From positions 372,001-436,000 of the forward strand of contig NZ_FRCK01000001.1 of the NCBI RefSeq assembly GCF_900142875.1: DNA of 64,000 nucleotides. The letters are read 5' to 3'. Source of the stretch: Paracoccus solventivorans. Lineage in GTDB: Bacteria > Pseudomonadota > Alphaproteobacteria > Rhodobacterales > Rhodobacteraceae. The notes beneath the pieces are model-generated. The model searched no databases and was not told the origin of the DNA. It worked only from the letters and a program-made list of their open reading frames with translations. Shown one piece after another: positions 9,170 through 49,690 of the stretch. Numbering within the stretch: position 1 is the stretch's first letter; each line of letters opens with the position of its first letter. The position numbers and the translations under genes are program-made.

Positions 9170-10438
9170 ATGCTGACCCCCAAGATCGTCACCATGCTCA
9201 AGGATTACGACGCGCCGACGCTGCGCGCCGATGTCCTTGCCGGGATCACCGTGGCGATGGTGGCGCTGCCGCTGAGCCTGGCGATCGCCATCGCCTCGGG
9301 GGCGCCGCCGGCGACGGGGCCGGTGACCGCGATCGTGGCGGGGCTGCTGATTTCCATCTTCGGCGGCAGCCGGGTGCAGATCGGCGGGCCGACCGGCGCC
9401 TTCATCGTCGTCGTCTACAGCGTGATCCAGAACCACGGGCTGGATGGGCTGCTGATCGCCACGCTGATGGCCGGGGCGCTGCTGGTGCTGGCGGCGCTGC
9501 TGCGGGTCGGCGGGCTGATCCGCCTGATCCCCGAACCCGTCATCAGCGGCTTCACCATCGGCATCGCGGTCATCATCGGCGCCAGCCAGATCGCCGATTT
9601 CTTCGGGCTGGACACCGGGGCCGTGCCCGCCGCCATGCTGGAAAAGATCCCGGTGCTGTGGCAGGCGCGCGGCTCGGCCGGCTGGGCGGATGTCGGCGTC
9701 GGCCTGTTCACGCTGGCGCTGATCGTGGTGCTGCGCCGCGCCGCGCCGCGGCTGCCGGGGCTGATCGTGGCCATCGCCGCGGGCTCGCTGCTTGTCGCGA
9801 TCTTCGGCCTGCCGGTGGAGACGCTGGGCTCGCGCTTTGGCGAGCTGCCGCGCACCCTGCCCGCCCCTGCCCTGCCCTCGGGCATCACACTGGCGCGGAT
9901 GGGCGAGCTGCTGCCGTCGGCGCTGACCATCGCCTTCCTCGCCGGCATCGAATCGCTGCTGTCGGCCATGGTCGCGGACCGGCTGGTCGGCGGCCAGCAC
10001 CGCCCGAATGCCGAGATCATGGCGCAGGGCATCGCCAATATCGGTTCCGTCTTCTTCGGCGGGCTGCCGGCGACCGGCGCCATCGCCCGCACCGCCACCA
10101 ATGTGCGCGCGGGCGGGCGCACCCCGGTCGCGGGGGTGGTCCATGCGCTGACCATCCTGCTGGTGATGCTGCTGGCCGCCCCGCTGGCCGGCTATCTGGC
10201 GATGCCGGCGCTGGCCGCGGTGCTGGTGCTGACCGCCTGGAACATGGCCGAGCCGGGCCGCTGGGGCGAACATCTGCACGCCCGCCGCGGCGACCGCGCG
10301 GTGCTGCTGCTTACGCTGGCGCTGACCGTGTTCACCGACCTGACCATCGCCATCGCCGCGGGCGTCATCGCCGGGCTGCTGGTCCGCATGAACCGCCGCG
10401 GCCTGCCGCCCGCGGGCTGGACCCCGCCCCGCAGATAG
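9170..10438 (+). CDS. SulP-family anion permease lacking the STAS domain
   Basis: A 422-aa membrane protein with about 10-12 hydrophobic helices and SulP signatures (DVLAGITVAMVALPLSLAIA near the N-terminus, GGSRVQIGGPTGAFIVVVYS). Family members carry sulfate, bicarbonate or other anions across the inner membrane. Most SulP proteins of ~550-600 aa end in a cytoplasmic STAS domain; here the chain stops after the last helix (VIAGLLVRMNRR) with only a short tail. The substrate is unknown. It sits inside the valine-catabolism set without an obvious link. Confidence 0.9.
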   Translation: MLTPKIVTMLKDYDAPTLRADVLAGITVAMVALPLSLAIAIASGAPPATGPVTAIVAGLLISIFGGSRVQIGGPTGAFIVVVYSVIQNHGLDGLLIATLMAGALLVLAALLRVGGLIRLIPEPVISGFTIGIAVIIGASQIADFFGLDTGAVPAAMLEKIPVLWQARGSAGWADVGVGLFTLALIVVLRRAAPRLPGLIVAIAAGSLLVAIFGLPVETLGSRFGELPRTLPAPALPSGITLARMGELLPSALTIAFLAGIESLLSAMVADRLVGGQHRPNAEIMAQGIANIGSVFFGGLPATGAIARTATNVRAGGRTPVAGVVHALTILLVMLLAAPLAGYLAMPALAAVLVLTAWNMAEPGRWGEHLHARRGDRAVLLLTLALTVFTDLTIAIAAGVIAGLLVRMNRRGLPPAGWTPPRR

Positions 10439-42570: not shown

Positions 42571-42647
42571 GGCGGAGTAGCTCAGCTGGTTAGAGCAGCG
42601 GAATCATAATCCGCGTGTCGGGGGTTCGAGTCCCTCCTCCGCTACCA
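42571..42647 (+). tRNA. tRNA with CAT anticodon (elongator tRNA-Met; tRNA-Ile2 not excluded)
   Basis: A 77-nt cloverleaf with encoded CCA: acceptor GGCGGAG/CTCCGCT (first pair G-U), D-arm TAGCTCAGCTGGTTAGAGCA, anticodon stem GCGGA/TCCGC with loop ATCATAA (anticodon CAT), T-arm GGGGGTTCGAGTCCCTC and discriminator A. The acceptor does not have the C1-A72 mismatch of an initiator. Telling Met from lysidine-modified Ile needs comparison. It is the integration site of the prophage: its 3' half is shared with the recombinase gene. Confidence 0.93.
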
Positions 42648-42650
42648 CAG
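42604..42650. other. Candidate attL: tRNA 3' half at the prophage boundary
   Basis: Phage coding sequence (the recombinase) runs antisense into the tRNA and stops at a TGA formed by the anticodon region. The left att core therefore lies within or at the edge of the tRNA 3' half. The exact core cannot be set because attR lies outside the window. Confidence 0.55.
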
Positions 42651-44238
42651 CACCCCCCGACAGCCGTCGTTTCAGGGTCGGCGCATCGATCAGGGCGCGC
42701 AACTTGCCTGCCACCGTGATCTCCATCTGCCCTTTGGCAGTTTCCGAGATCGTCACGGTTTCGATCAGTCCCCGCAGGATCTCCGCATAGCGCGTGGTCT
42801 CGGAGCTGTTGTCGGTGCCCATGATTTGGGCCAGCTTAGCAAGGTCCAAGCGATAGCCGACCAGGGCCGCCGGGTGCAGCATCACCGGCGTGATCGCCGG
42901 CGGCTCATCCTCCAGCTCGGCCTTGGCTGACGCGAGCTCCTCACAGCGGGCCTCGTAATCGGCCGCCAACCGGTCGGTATTGCCGATGCCGCGTGCGACA
43001 AAGTCGATCAGGCGGCTAACCTCCGCGTCGAGCTGCTTGATACGGCTCTCGAGCTTGGAGCGCCGGCGCAGCATCCCGGCCGCATATTCGGCACGCGCCT
43101 TGTTGTACTCGCTGACATAGAGGTCGAGCATCGCCGGCTTTTGCAGCTCGCCGCGCAGCAGGCCGATGACCTGTTCCTCGACCACGTCCAGATACCACGT
43201 GCGCGGCTTGGGGCAGGTGCGGCTTTGCACATGCCGGGTGCAGCCGATTCGCACCCGACCGCTGCGGTCCTTGCCTTTAACCGACATCCCGCCGCCACAG
43301 GCGCCGCACCGCAGGAGACCGGACAGCGGCCGCGTGGGGCGGCGCATCTTGGCGCGGTCGGAATGCGATGTCGTGCGGTCGGGCGTGATCATTGCCTGCA
43401 CCTGATCCCATACCGCATCGTCGATGATTCGCAGGTGCGGGGCGTCGTGATGCAGCCAGTTTTCGGCAGGATTCGAGCGAGACACCCGCCGGCCGGTCTC
43501 GGGATCCGTCACAAAACGGGTCTTGTTCCAGACGATGCGCCCCACATACAGATCATTGCGGAGGATGCCGGATCGGCGCTCGGCCCAGCCGTAGATCGTG
43601 CTGGCCTGCCAGGCGCGGGCGCCGCGGGGCATCGGGCATTTGTCCTTTGTCAGCCCGTGAGCGATCTCAACAGCTGATCGCCCATCGGCAAATTCCTGAA
43701 AGATGCGCCTGATGATTTCGGCCTCCTCGGGCACGATCACCAGCTCGCCCCTTTCCGTCGGGTGCGGCCGATATCCAAAGGCCCGCCCCCCGGCAGTGCG
43801 ACCCCGGCTTATATTGCCGGTCATCCCGCGGCGGATCTTGCGGGCGTTGTCCTCGCGAAACAGCTGCCCGACCAAGCCGCGCAGGCCAACTGTCACGGTG
43901 TTGGCCACGCCCTCATGCACCGCGCGGATCTCGATCCCGGCGAAGGACAGCCGCTTATGGATGCCGGCGAGATCCTCCATGTCGCGTGCGAGGCGGTCTA
44001 GCTCCTCGACGATCACGGCATCGAACAGCCCCTCTCTCGCATCCGCGAGGAGCTGCAGCAGCCCGTCTCTCCGGAAAATCGAGGCGCCGGATTGGGCAGC
44101 GTCCGAGTAAAATTGCTGGATGGCCATCCCGTTGGCGAGCGCATAGCGGGTGATAAGGGCCTGCTGATCCTCGATCGAAAGCTCGTTTTGCAGGTCGGTA
44201 GAATATCGGCTGTAGCCGACGGCCCTTATGATGGCCAT
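42604..44238 (-). CDS. Prophage large serine recombinase (integrase)
   Basis: A 544-aa protein. The N-terminal resolvase domain (~1-150) has the nucleophilic Ser in VGYSRYSTDLQ and the EELDRLARDMEDL region. A recombinase domain follows (~165-270, TAGGRAFGYRPHPTERGELV), then a zinc ribbon (LLRCGACGGGMS, then CTRHVQSRTC) and a long coiled coil (~370-450). The last ~14 residues, ending AEEGLEPPTRGL, are read antisense from the tRNA gene and so are host-derived. GGGAGG precedes the ATG at 44238. It should insert and, with a directionality factor, excise the prophage. Confidence 0.93.
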   Translation of the reverse strand: MAIIRAVGYSRYSTDLQNELSIEDQQALITRYALANGMAIQQFYSDAAQSGASIFRRDGLLQLLADAREGLFDAVIVEELDRLARDMEDLAGIHKRLSFAGIEIRAVHEGVANTVTVGLRGLVGQLFREDNARKIRRGMTGNISRGRTAGGRAFGYRPHPTERGELVIVPEEAEIIRRIFQEFADGRSAVEIAHGLTKDKCPMPRGARAWQASTIYGWAERRSGILRNDLYVGRIVWNKTRFVTDPETGRRVSRSNPAENWLHHDAPHLRIIDDAVWDQVQAMITPDRTTSHSDRAKMRRPTRPLSGLLRCGACGGGMSVKGKDRSGRVRIGCTRHVQSRTCPKPRTWYLDVVEEQVIGLLRGELQKPAMLDLYVSEYNKARAEYAAGMLRRRSKLESRIKQLDAEVSRLIDFVARGIGNTDRLAADYEARCEELASAKAELEDEPPAITPVMLHPAALVGYRLDLAKLAQIMGTDNSSETTRYAEILRGLIETVTISETAKGQMEITVAGKLRALIDAPTLKRRLSGGAVVAEEGLEPPTRGL

Positions 44239-44239
44239 G

Positions 44240-44407
44240 TTACTGCCTCCCGGCCTCCAGCGAAGCCATGTGGTCTTGCCAAGCCCGTCTGCGGGCGAGC
44301 TGGATGATAAGGTCGCGGGCCGCCTTATCAATAGCCCCGAAATCGTCAGGCTCGGTCTGGCCGGTGGCGGCTCGCACAATAGGGTTGGCCGAGACTGGAT
44401 GCGTCAT
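44240..44407 (-). CDS. Small prophage protein next to the integrase (RDF candidate)
   Basis: A 55-aa protein with a helical, charged C-terminal half (IDKAARDLIIQLARRRAW). It lies one base upstream of the recombinase ATG and overlaps the upstream methylase-like gene by 4 bases. No family is recognised. Size and position fit a recombination directionality factor, but this is inference. Confidence 0.6.
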   Translation of the reverse strand: MTHPVSANPIVRAATGQTEPDDFGAIDKAARDLIIQLARRRAWQDHMASLEAGRQ

Positions 44408-47246: not shown

Positions 47247-47516
47247 ATGGACACCACGATGGACGAGATTCTTCACCGTCTGGAACAGGTGGAGCAGCGG
47301 CTTGAAAGTCTGGAAATTGCGGCGCGGCAGGGCGGTGTGTGGACCGCGCCGGGCGGTAAGGACTTCACGCAGGCCGATCTCGTGCTGTGGCTCGAGCACC
47401 TGATGCGCTCTCTCTCGGATGCGCACGCCAGACTGGACCGCGCGAACCTCGGCGGGCCGCAGGATGGTCGCGAGGCGCTGGACGCGTGGGGTCGGGTGTA
47501 CTTTCGTCATCCCTGA
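47247..47516 (+). CDS. Small coiled-coil prophage protein on the opposite strand
   Basis: An 89-aa protein beginning MDTTMDEILHRLEQVEQRLE, a clear coiled coil, followed by FTQADLVLWLEHLMRSLSDA. AGGAG lies ~12 bases before the ATG. It is the only rightward gene between the integrase and the control region, and its 3' end overlaps the convergent gene by 10 bases. Function unknown. Confidence 0.6.
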   Translation: MDTTMDEILHRLEQVEQRLESLEIAARQGGVWTAPGGKDFTQADLVLWLEHLMRSLSDAHARLDRANLGGPQDGREALDAWGRVYFRHP

Positions 47517-47929
47517 TCCCCCTCGATTGGGCGATCGTCCGGGATGATCTGGAAATCTCCGAACACCGCCCGCGCGATCAGGGTGCCTCCGGGCGTGATT
47601 TCTGCATGCATCCAGTCGACCTCGGAAAGCCCAAGGTGCCGACGCGCGCGTTTGATCTGGACGGGTGTCGGCATCCGGTTGAGAGGCAGCGGCCAGAACA
47701 GCTCTTCCCGGACCGGCGAAGGGTCGACACGATAAATCGCGGCGACTTCCTCAAGGTTTATCAGGGTGTCTTCGTTAGATGCGAGGCCGTGAAACCCGAT
47801 GCGCTTGGCGCTTTGGATTGTCCGGGCGAGCGCGCCGGCGCTCACAGCAAATTCCTGCCTCTCGCCGCTTTTGAAAAGCACCCCGATCCGCTCGTGGGCG
47901 CTGGCCTGGTCCTTGTCGTCGCTGTCCAT
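47507..47929 (-). CDS. First gene of the leftward (PL-like) operon, unknown
   Basis: A 140-aa protein with a possible N-terminal beta region (IGVLFKSGERQEFAVSAGAL) and HTH-like helices (PVQIKRARRHLGLSEVDWMH). The ATG at 47929 has GGAGG five bases upstream and is chosen over one at 47941 that has none. It lies directly downstream of the left operator copy, so it would be expressed early after induction. Confidence 0.7.
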   Translation of the reverse strand: MDSDDKDQASAHERIGVLFKSGERQEFAVSAGALARTIQSAKRIGFHGLASNEDTLINLEEVAAIYRVDPSPVREELFWPLPLNRMPTPVQIKRARRHLGLSEVDWMHAEITPGGTLIARAVFGDFQIIPDDRPIEGDQG

Positions 47930-47999
47930 CCTGACCTCCATCGGGTTGCGATGCCCGGCGGATCAGCGGATGCGTCTTCGCGCCGGGTAAGGTCAAGGT

Positions 48000-48048
48000 G
48001 GTTCAGATAATATGGACTGTCAACATGTATTGTTCATATTTTCTGGAC
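48000..48048. promoter_or_regulatory. Left operator/promoter of the prophage control region (OL-like)
   Basis: A 24-bp block (48000-48023) and a 20-bp block (48029-48048) recur in inverted orientation at 49633-49690: 22/24 and 17/20 identical. The outer block reads TTGACAGTCCA on the minus strand, a -35-like sequence pointing at the leftward gene. Contains TTCAGAT and CTGGAC half-sites. No gene is seen in the rest of the 47930-48182 gap. Confidence 0.75.
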
Positions 48049-48182
48049 TTCATGATTCGGCCGGGCGATCAGGAACCATGCCAACGCCGGGCGGCGACAC
48101 ATGAAAAAGCCCGCCGGTGAGGGCAGGCTTTTGGGTAAAACTCTGATCGTGCACTAAGTTGCGGCCTGCCAGAGCCGGCCAG

Positions 48183-49097
48183 CTATGCTTCGGGTGTGCC
48201 AGTCACAATCTGCGCGCTGATGGCATGGAACGTCTTTATCGGTCCGTCGATTATGCGCGTAGTCTTCCCTGTGAGAGTGATGGGCAGGCTCTCCGCGTAA
48301 GCGCGCTTGTAAACATTTCCCGGTCGTTCAAACTCAGGGTCTCCGATGATGGCAGGAAGGATGCGCTCACCCTCAGCGTCTTCGGGGTCGAACACAAACA
48401 GCACACGCCGCTGGTCTCGGATGCCCTCGATGCGAAACGTCATGTCCAAGATGTCGCTGACCTCTAGATCTTCCTTGGCACGGATTGCATCTGCCGTCGC
48501 TTCATCGACCACGGGGCTATCGCCCCTGGCGCGCGCCGCGAACGTCGATGCCGATTTACCAATCGGTGCGACTGCCAGCTTTGCTGCGCCATGAAGTGCG
48601 AGCGCTTGGTCATGAAGAAGCTGGCGCATATGCTCTCGCTGATGCCGCATGTCCGCATAGACGGCGTCACGCTCGCGTTGTCGATCCTCATGGGCGCGCT
48701 CCCGCTCCGCCGCCAGCAGATCAAGCATTTTGTCCATAATTTTGTCCGCCTCTCGGCGCCGTCCGCCGAACCAGAGCATAACATAGTTTATGAAATGTTC
48801 TATCAGGTTGGACTGGATAGCCCCGGTGAAGTCAGGGAGCAAGGGGAGCAAACCCGGTGCTGTTTGCGTGATCCACGCAAGCTCGAAGCTGCCCGCACGC
48901 GGCTCACCAACGGTCATCACCAGTGAGCTTGAACGCGGCGCTTTTTTCTGGACGATGCCCGTTTCCAGCGCGCCGTAGAGCGATGAAACGATGCGATCCA
49001 GGCCCATCAACGCAGGGCTGAGGTCGCGCGCGGGAAGCCGGTGCATCGTGGCCATCAGACCATCATAGGAAAACGACCCAAAGGCAATGTCGCCCAA
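48183..49097 (-). CDS. Unknown 304-aa protein between the two operators (rex position)
   Basis: No family is recognised. Visible: an N-terminal domain (~1-100), a hydrophobic stretch SNLIEHFINYVMLWFGG (~98-113), a strongly charged coiled coil rich in Arg/Glu (~120-165), and a C-terminal beta-rich domain (DILDMTFRIEGIRDQRRVLF, then ESLPITLTGKTTRIIDGPIK). The TTG start has GAGGGG six bases upstream; an internal ATG at 49055 is an alternative. Base composition is less GC-rich than the host. It lies downstream of the repressor in the same direction, so it would be made during lysogeny. Confidence 0.8.
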   Translation of the reverse strand: MGDIAFGSFSYDGLMATMHRLPARDLSPALMGLDRIVSSLYGALETGIVQKKAPRSSSLVMTVGEPRAGSFELAWITQTAPGLLPLLPDFTGAIQSNLIEHFINYVMLWFGGRRREADKIMDKMLDLLAAERERAHEDRQRERDAVYADMRHQREHMRQLLHDQALALHGAAKLAVAPIGKSASTFAARARGDSPVVDEATADAIRAKEDLEVSDILDMTFRIEGIRDQRRVLFVFDPEDAEGERILPAIIGDPEFERPGNVYKRAYAESLPITLTGKTTRIIDGPIKTFHAISAQIVTGTPEA

Positions 49098-49232
49098 AAC
49101 AGTCCCCTCACTCTCTGCCGGTCTCGCGCCAGACAGTCTGCGCCAGCTTGCCGCGGCGCGACCTTCGGGGTTGATCCGTCGGCGGATGTTCGCTTAACGT
49201 TCCAGAAAGGCGGAGGGGCGCAGTGTCGAGGA

Positions 49233-49613
49233 TCATGTTTGCAGTTGCTGCCCTCGCGGTGCGGCTCGGGATCGACCTGAACTTTCTTTTCGATCCCATT
49301 CATCGGTCGCGGCTTCAAGCGCTGGGAAAAGCCGTTCCTGCACATCGCCGGGCAACTGCGAAAAGTCGCCATTCATCATGAAGTTGAAGTCGATACGATG
49401 CGCTCGATAGAGATATTTCAGGATGTCTCGATTTGGATATGTCGACCCGGACATGGCGTTGCTCAGGACTGTCTTCGACACGCCTGTCGCCTTGGCCAAG
49501 TCGAGATGTTGCTTCAGCCCGGTAACAATGAAGGCCGCGCGCAGCCTTATGGCTGCCGCCTCAAGCCCCATGTCGTTCACGCGGGCCAGTCTGGTTTTGT
49601 GCTCCAAGTCCAT
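49233..49613 (-). CDS. Prophage repressor (cI-like), XRE-type HTH
   Basis: A 126-aa protein with an HTH at ~30-55 (LKQHLDLAKATGVSKTVLSN) followed by a short C-terminal region. It lacks the LexA-like peptidase domain, so induction by RecA cleavage is not expected in the lambda manner. It is divergent from the cro-like gene across a shared operator. The ATG at 49613 has no obvious ribosome site; a later ATG at codon 15 is possible. Confidence 0.8.
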   Translation of the reverse strand: MDLEHKTRLARVNDMGLEAAAIRLRAAFIVTGLKQHLDLAKATGVSKTVLSNAMSGSTYPNRDILKYLYRAHRIDFNFMMNGDFSQLPGDVQERLFPALEAATDEWDRKESSGRSRAAPRGQQLQT

Positions 49614-49632
49614 GAGGCAACTATCGCCTGCG

Positions 49633-49690
49633 GTCCAGATATTTTGAACAATCCATCATCTGGACATTGACAGTCCAGTTTATCTGAACC
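49633..49690. promoter_or_regulatory. Right operator/promoter of the prophage control region (OR-like)
   Basis: The 20-bp block (49633-49652) and 24-bp block (49667-49690) are inverted copies of those at 48000-48048. The plus strand carries TTGACA (49667-49672) pointing at the cro-like gene, which starts only ~30 bases on without a good ribosome site, so its mRNA may be nearly leaderless. Half-sites TCCAGAT, ATCTGGAC, GTCCAG and ATCTGAAC are spread over ~60 bp. Confidence 0.78.

Follow-up and report, generated by a model that had tools for sequence, protein, structure and literature searches.

In phage lambda the immunity region has the order OL-rex-cI-OR, with the repressor gene set between two operator regions. 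The lambda operators OL and OR and the promoter PRM are described in PMC4557955. Where the repressor is not cleaved, small proteins can take over its inactivation, and the LexA-controlled antirepressors GfoA/GftA of the Gifsy phages, Tum of 186 and AntC of N15, as presented in PMC3121763, provide a precedent. Among the Paracoccus phages covered by PMC6536676, only one CI-like protein is reported to have an S24 domain, so that induction without cleavage would not be exceptional in this group. The locus described here lies in a stretch of Paracoccus solventivorans DNA of 64,000 nucleotides (the window; coordinates throughout are positions within it). Judged by sequence and topology, it is arranged like the lambda region, around a repressor family of its own. 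Its more interesting part is a micro-ORF that had been overlooked, which lies opposite the repressor gene and is preceded by a LexA-type box.

The prophage setting is indicated by a gene for a large serine integrase (42604-44379) that overlaps a tRNA-Met gene (42571-42647). Leftward genes extend up to PL and are followed by the immunity region and then by rightward genes (Table 1).

Table 1. Features of the immunity region, with positions in the window.
Feature	Position	Strand	Basis or remark
144-aa gene, first in leftward operon behind PL	47507..47941	-	ORF; no family found
OL1 operator	48001..48017	-	GTCCATATTATCTGAAC on - strand; palindrome scans
PL -35 TTGACA	48018..48023	-	-10 at 17 bp spacing (CACCTT) weak
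OL2 operator	48032..48048	-	palindrome scans
Terminator-like hairpin then T run, between cargo gene and OL	48105..48132	-	folding
Cargo gene in rex position, DUF7946/DUF7947, 304 aa	48183..49097	-	ORF and family match
Putative micro-ORF promoter TTGATC-18-TAACGT	49171..49200	+	read from sequence
LexA-type box GTTCGCTTAACGTTC	49188..49202	+	exact GTTCN7GTTC, ends 20 nt before micro-ORF start
Micro-ORF, GTG start, 52 aa, candidate antirepressor	49223..49381	+	convergent with repressor gene, overlaps its 3' end
Repressor, 126 aa, HTH	49233..49613	-	ORF and families; no recognised cleavage domain
Putative repressor-promoter -10 GATAGT	49620..49625	-	mRNA probably leaderless
OR2 operator	49633..49649	+	palindrome scans
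Extra half-site CTGGAC in OR	49660..49665	+	sequence
PR -35 TTGACA	49667..49672	+	sequence
OR1 operator	49673..49689	+	fills PR spacer; -10 CAGATT after OR1 weak
Cro-position gene, 102 aa	49702..50010	+	ATG 12 nt after OR1, probably leaderless

The original prediction described two sequence blocks at the left end of the region that recur, inverted, at its right end, and recomputation reproduced its figures: positions 48000-48023 match the reverse complement of 49667-49690 at 22/24 bases, 48029-48048 match that of 49633-49652 at 17/20, both outer blocks contain a TTGACA pointing outward, and the gaps between the blocks are 5 and 14 bp. A repeat search lengthened the two matches to 30 nt (87%) and 24 nt (83%). 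When 3143 control 24-mers were sampled every 7 bases between 40 and 62 kb, the best inverted match within 2 kb was 22, seen for a single 24-mer, and among 3143 20-mers sampled in the same way five had an inverted match of at least 17 within that distance, with the reservation that both samples may contain the blocks themselves. Every block contains a 17-bp palindrome, GTYCAG-N5-CTGRAC, corresponding to OL1, OL2, OR2 and OR1. With at most one mismatch this pattern occurs four times in the window, against a mean of 0.39 in shuffled sequences, none of which (0/100) reached four. With at most one mismatch and an A/T spacer, a scan of the host genome (3,374,551 bases) returned only the four window sites, and a reversed control pattern returned none. 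Three operator sites per OL and OR, the lambda trait, were not seen in the window, which has two full sites in each and an additional half-site in OR.

Related loci were gathered from IMG/VR and from genomes by searches with the repressor and its profile, excluding genome matches near E 1e-4 or weaker (L074-L080, L113 and L114). Two of the 76 loci examined lacked a usable start (L059 and L120), and 66 of the remaining 74 were distinct by their first 100 residues; all locus counts include loci that are related to one another. The analyses with 61 rows (co-variation, residue links, start spacing, tree test and terminator) omit L022, L023, L084, L090 and L026. Right operators, for which a scoring script was combined with visual inspection, have the same build in 62/66 distinct loci (a -35 that is usually TTG-type, the 17-bp palindrome, a -10 usually starting with TA, and the cro-position ATG) and are absent from L022, L023, L084 and L090. 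Of these 62 loci, 56 also have a significant inverted left pair (p < 0.03 against column-permuted matrices), accompanied by a promoter-like -35 that faces outward, with the pair search limited to spacings of 39-41 bp for OR and 27-35 bp for OL; a freer scan of OR agreed in most rows. Left pairs were weaker in L024, L061, L088 and L125 (p 0.053-0.093), the pair in L123 was scored badly by its own matrix (p 0.60) with 41 of 59 foreign matrices landing on its site, and in L026 no left pair was present in the 2.6 kb available before the contig end. Related prophages devoid of the left copy, the observation that the original prediction had named as telling against it, were therefore not clearly encountered.

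These loci also inform the promoters. The PR and PL -10 boxes of the window are weak, and a generic promoter scan listed neither of these promoters, returning one other leftward site within OL (48036-48007), which is at the shuffle level (mean 1.0). In 60/61 loci, an ATG or GTG in the cro position lies 12-14 nt past OR1, and because this is about where transcription is expected to start, the cro-position mRNA is probably leaderless; the family matches of the cro-position gene of the window are weak (E 0.042 and 0.012). A TAnA-like -10 spanning positions -12 to -7 relative to the start codon of the repressor gene suggests that the repressor mRNA is leaderless as well; the analysis covered 34 loci below 70% identity, 32 of which were used for the repressor side. 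The extra half-site of OR, located beside the -35, fits its own operator class at 3.35/6 positions and foreign classes at 2.60/6, and no such half-site was seen at the corresponding place in OL (1.65/6). The hairpin and T run before OL in the window were equalled in folding by 4/200 shuffles; a terminator at this place was found in 17/61 loci compared with 9 control segments, and hence is not a general feature.

The half-sites fall into several classes, including GTYCAG, GTCCAT, GTACAT, ATCCGA and ATACAT. Because the left pairs had originally been located with the matrix of the locus itself, a second co-variation test was run, in which each left region was scored with its own right-operator matrix and with the matrices of loci whose repressors are at most 60% identical, all matrices being maximised alike. 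On the left region of its locus, the own matrix came out ahead of every foreign one in 28/61 loci, with a mean rank fraction of 0.07, and ranked badly in L058 (33/60 foreign matrices better) and L123 (40/59 better). Left regions thus agree more closely with the right operator of the same locus than with those of other loci, which is the co-variation of the two copies that had been suggested as a check. In a tree test, A at half-site position 1 gave 7 supported pairs, with a mean of 4.8 agreeing and 0.1 opposing (median p 0.06), and G at this position gave 6 pairs, with means of 3.8 agreeing and 0.1 opposing; left-right agreement at position 6 had 2-4 pairs and gave no clear result. The operators also track the repressor: half-site position 5 is A in 43 loci (Asn52 in 41, Ala52 in 2) and G in 18 loci with Ser, Ala or Thr52, and position 6 follows residue 58 less strictly. 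In the predicted structure, residue 52 would lie within the helix formed by residues 47-54 and residue 58 just past it. A residue-operator code was rejected as evidence independent of ancestry, as there are too few independent changes (for G at position 6, 2 independent pairs, both agreeing; for T, 3 pairs, of which 1.1 agree on average). With repressors and operator pairs from some 60 loci, the family is a natural data set for following how specificity and operators change jointly. The conserved right operators, the left operators and the fit between the two support the predicted lambda-like topology, and we consider it highly probable that one short repressor controls both early promoters through these candidate operators.

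The repressor itself was described at the outset as short and lacking a self-cleavage domain, and this description held: Pfam yielded only HTH families for the 126-aa protein, the predicted model is all helical, and neither Pfam nor the model revealed a LexA-like self-cleaving C-terminal domain. Its HTH matches the profile of P22 c2 (E 7e-5), and the modelled fold would align with P22 c2 (3jxb_C; Z 7.1, rmsd 2.1, 67 aligned) and the 434 repressor (2or1_L; Z 6.9, rmsd 1.5, 60 aligned), Z values in the range below 8, where the similarity may stem from a common arrangement. Named relatives of this protein come from Paracoccus (three), Sinirhodobacter and a Rhodobacteraceae MAG; matches on a Sulfitobacter plasmid also turned up in the searches. 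Among 50,697 phage records, the repressor had no match at E 1e-5. With one member from each of two further operator classes, the only matches to phage records were eight Mycobacterium phages with immunity repressors for L050 (25.6% identity, E 0.002-0.005) and one Streptococcus satellite phage for L032 (29.7% identity). We take the eight Mycobacterium phages to belong with BPs.

Between the blocks, the original prediction placed the repressor gene and one other leftward gene. Both are present, and the inventory was incomplete in that a conserved micro-ORF occupies the opposite strand. It emerged as a conserved frame when the stretch from the repressor stop to OL was aligned for 14 loci, and a motif search found it in 40/66 loci; starts and Shine-Dalgarno-like sequences (3 to 6 of 6 matches to AGGAGG) were assigned, with a choice of start that is partly ambiguous. 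The micro-ORF is under protein-level coding constraint. Over the 15 codons before an anchor motif in 35 loci, the mean pairwise BLOSUM62 score is 1.11, whereas the five other frames score -0.83 to 0.52; stops interrupt these codons in 0/35 loci in the micro-ORF frame and in 5-22 loci in the others; and substitutions are distributed over the three codon positions as 36/15/50% (15 pairs at 25-40% divergence). Save at most a few bases, these 15 codons sit outside the repressor gene. Its overlap with the repressor gene, on the opposite strand, may cause gene callers to miss the micro-ORF.

A profile made from the 40 micro-ORFs matched at the same place in 58/66 loci, 57 of them at E up to 0.01; 18 of the 58 lie outside the seed, and the weakest match (L060) has an E value of 0.19. 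Across all six frames of all loci, just two other matches appeared (E 0.23 and 0.85), and the four loci without operators gave none. Diverged versions were recognised by eye in L056, L085 and L088, with L131 ambiguous. Among 295 family genomes, 8 were matched at E up to 0.001, of which six carry the same repressor family; the remaining two matches (G125 and G277) are partial and elsewhere. A micro-ORF-like frame (ALGINLNWIFDP) was also seen at 1444-1605 of L181, in another genome, with no repressor of the same family beside it in the ORF list. Two of the four loci without operators, L022 (about 9471-9809) and L023 (about 9717-10073), code for homologues of the repressor (71-73% identity) in surroundings of housekeeping-looking ORFs; an exact LexA-type box is absent, the micro-ORF is represented only by decayed-looking traces, and these homologues are possibly domesticated immunity genes.

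Searches of Pfam and PHROGs with 21 micro-ORF members gave no convincing match. The structure model is of low confidence (pLDDT 64); 2 chains were aligned to it, neither reaching Z 2, and two weak PDB sequence matches (E 1.2 and 1.8) were disregarded. The micro-ORF and the repressor show a likeness over 12 columns (hhalign E 0.012, probability 3.7), and GIDLNFLF of the micro-ORF weakly resembles RIDFNFMM of the repressor, a stretch that we take to be the end of an XRE-type HTH domain. This likeness suggests mimicry of the repressor by the peptide.

The box ahead of the micro-ORF has one of the two forms, GTTCN7GTTC and GAACN7GAAC, given for alphaproteobacterial LexA sites in PMC3091678. In the host, two overlapping GTTCN7GTTC boxes lie upstream of lexA, ~40 bp before the LexA-domain match, and one box precedes the likely recA start by ~60 bp. 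Since the host genome contains 84 exact boxes, compared with 45 occurrences of the reversed pattern, a box alone is weak evidence. Within a 290-nt segment at the 3' end of the repressor gene, the exact box is present in 32/66 loci but only 16/1049 background segments (Fisher p 1e-31, a value inflated by the relatedness of the loci), and all 32 belong to the 58 loci with a micro-ORF match. For the 23 exact-box loci with an assigned start, the box ends 13-32 nt before the start in 19 and 108 nt before it in L032 and L047; in L054 and L125 the box end is -19 and 2 nt from the assigned start, and the choice of start is doubtful. Boxes with 7/8 matches, found in 13 loci, are no more frequent than in the background (190/1049). 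The loci therefore divide roughly evenly into those with and those without a LexA-type box, the exact form being absent from the scanned segment in 34/66. In L019, L020, L021, L025 and L121, the micro-ORF is present and the scanned segment holds no LexA-type box; induction of these prophages may depend on a different signal.

We propose that the 126-aa HTH repressor binds the pairs of 17-bp operators that close the region on either side. In each pair, one site occupies the spacer of an early promoter directed outward (PL to the integrase operon, PR to the cro-position gene), so that bound repressor would shut both promoters. The other right-hand site, OR2, overlaps the promoter region of the repressor gene and would probably set the repressor level. 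Induction probably proceeds without repressor cleavage: LexA would hold the micro-ORF off, DNA damage would release it, and its ~50-aa product, or a transcript antisense into the repressor gene, would remove repression. Taken as a whole, this combination of lambda-like operators with a LexA-held micro-ORF that relieves repression is, on the sequence evidence, the reading we moderately favour; for the micro-ORF as a LexA-controlled antirepressor, considered on its own, we see the case as evenly balanced. For the short repressors of this family, in which no cleavage domain is recognised, the model would provide a concrete and testable induction route. More tentatively, the antirepressor may be encoded antisense to its own repressor target, such that one LexA-controlled unit combines attack by a microprotein with a transcript into the repressor gene; a helix-loop segment of the repressor (RIDFNF) may be imitated by the microprotein (GIDLNF), which would poison repressor assembly, and the module may be widespread.

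It is possible, if doubtful, that the operators work as described and the micro-ORF has another role, for example as a lysogeny-stage peptide, with induction brought about by an antirepressor elsewhere in the prophage. The location of the LexA-controlled Gifsy antirepressors outside the immunity region, as described in PMC3121763, and the many loci without an exact box agree with such a role, which is harder to reconcile with the conserved place of the micro-ORF against the repressor gene in 58/66 loci, the absence of its profile from the four loci without operators and the enrichment of the box. We find it improbable that a LexA-controlled promoter serves solely to drive RNA into the repressor gene, with the peptide as a by-product; a transcript from this position would run convergently into that gene, yet the protein-level constraint is found outside it.

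Within the proposed model, the spacing of the operators bears on how the repressor would bind. Sites within the OL pair are 30 or 31 bp apart in 54/56 loci and those within the OR pair 39-41 bp, a difference of about one helical turn, and spacings of about three and four turns would fit cooperative binding on one face of the DNA. The original prediction also raised looping over ~1.65 kb, and this part found no support. Two operator pairs do lie on the same DNA, and OL1 and OR1 are kept 550-590 bp apart in 21/56 loci, but over all 56 loci the distance ranges from 550 to 2947 bp with no helical phase (vector length 0.17 at 10.5 bp, about chance), and it is accordingly unlikely that repression relies on a DNA loop between OL and OR. 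In the 21 loci with the nearly constant distance (for example L050, L086 and L131), there is no cargo, though repressor length varies; this constancy may mean no more than that the region has a fixed length within which the stop codon moves (correlation -0.75, 23 loci). That the blocks are instead the ends of an invertible DNA segment is very improbable, for although ~1.6 kb is flanked by inverted repeats and the prophage has a serine recombinase, the best matches of this recombinase are integrases, the likeness of the blocks is limited to operator and promoter, and the orientation of the repressor relative to the wide-spaced pair is fixed, its start lying next to that pair with the cro-position ATG in 60/61 loci and both orientations of the segment not being found among the relatives.

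The slot between OL and the repressor gene varies in content. The gap contains no leftward ORF of at least 50 aa in the 21 loci with an OL1-OR1 distance of at most 590 bp. Elsewhere the cargo is a DUF7946 protein in the window, a similar 307-aa protein in L117 (another Paracoccus-type genome) and SocA_Panacea proteins in L013 and L047. The cargo of L030, L060 and L061 consists of opposed gene pairs of similar size (227-230 aa rightward, 238-260 aa leftward), of which the leftward gene of L030 is weakly HTH-like. DUF7946 scores above the cut-off in 4/289 class genomes, the host's own included, and a search of the open-access literature found no paper using this name. PADLOC gave no match that would indicate a defence function for 10 proteins, 8 of them cargo. 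Genes that are active in lysogens may be sought in this slot.

Like lambda, the region has a repressor gene between two inverted operator/promoter regions, a cro-position gene at PR, an accessory gene and a terminator-like hairpin before OL, and an integrase on the leftward side. Unlike lambda, it has two operator sites and a half-site at OR rather than three sites, repressors of about 98-127 aa with no recognised cleavage domain, an operator that fills the -35/-10 spacer, and an opposing micro-ORF with a LexA-type box. Mycobacteriophage BPs, in the description of gp33 and its operator in PMC4557955, likewise has a short repressor (the 103-aa form) and an OR between the -10 and -35 of PR; it differs in its integration-dependent immunity and its operator. 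The TF-smORF modules of Vibrio and Aeromonas phages, as characterised in PMC10432266, resemble the mechanism proposed here in that a small protein inactivates the repressor without proteolysis, and differ in being SOS-independent and switched by a phage transcription factor. In the Gifsy, 186 and N15 systems, according to PMC3121763, an uncleaved repressor is inactivated by the product of a small LexA-controlled gene, as we propose for this family. In those systems that gene is located outside the immunity region, whereas the micro-ORF lies within it, convergent with and overlapping the repressor gene.
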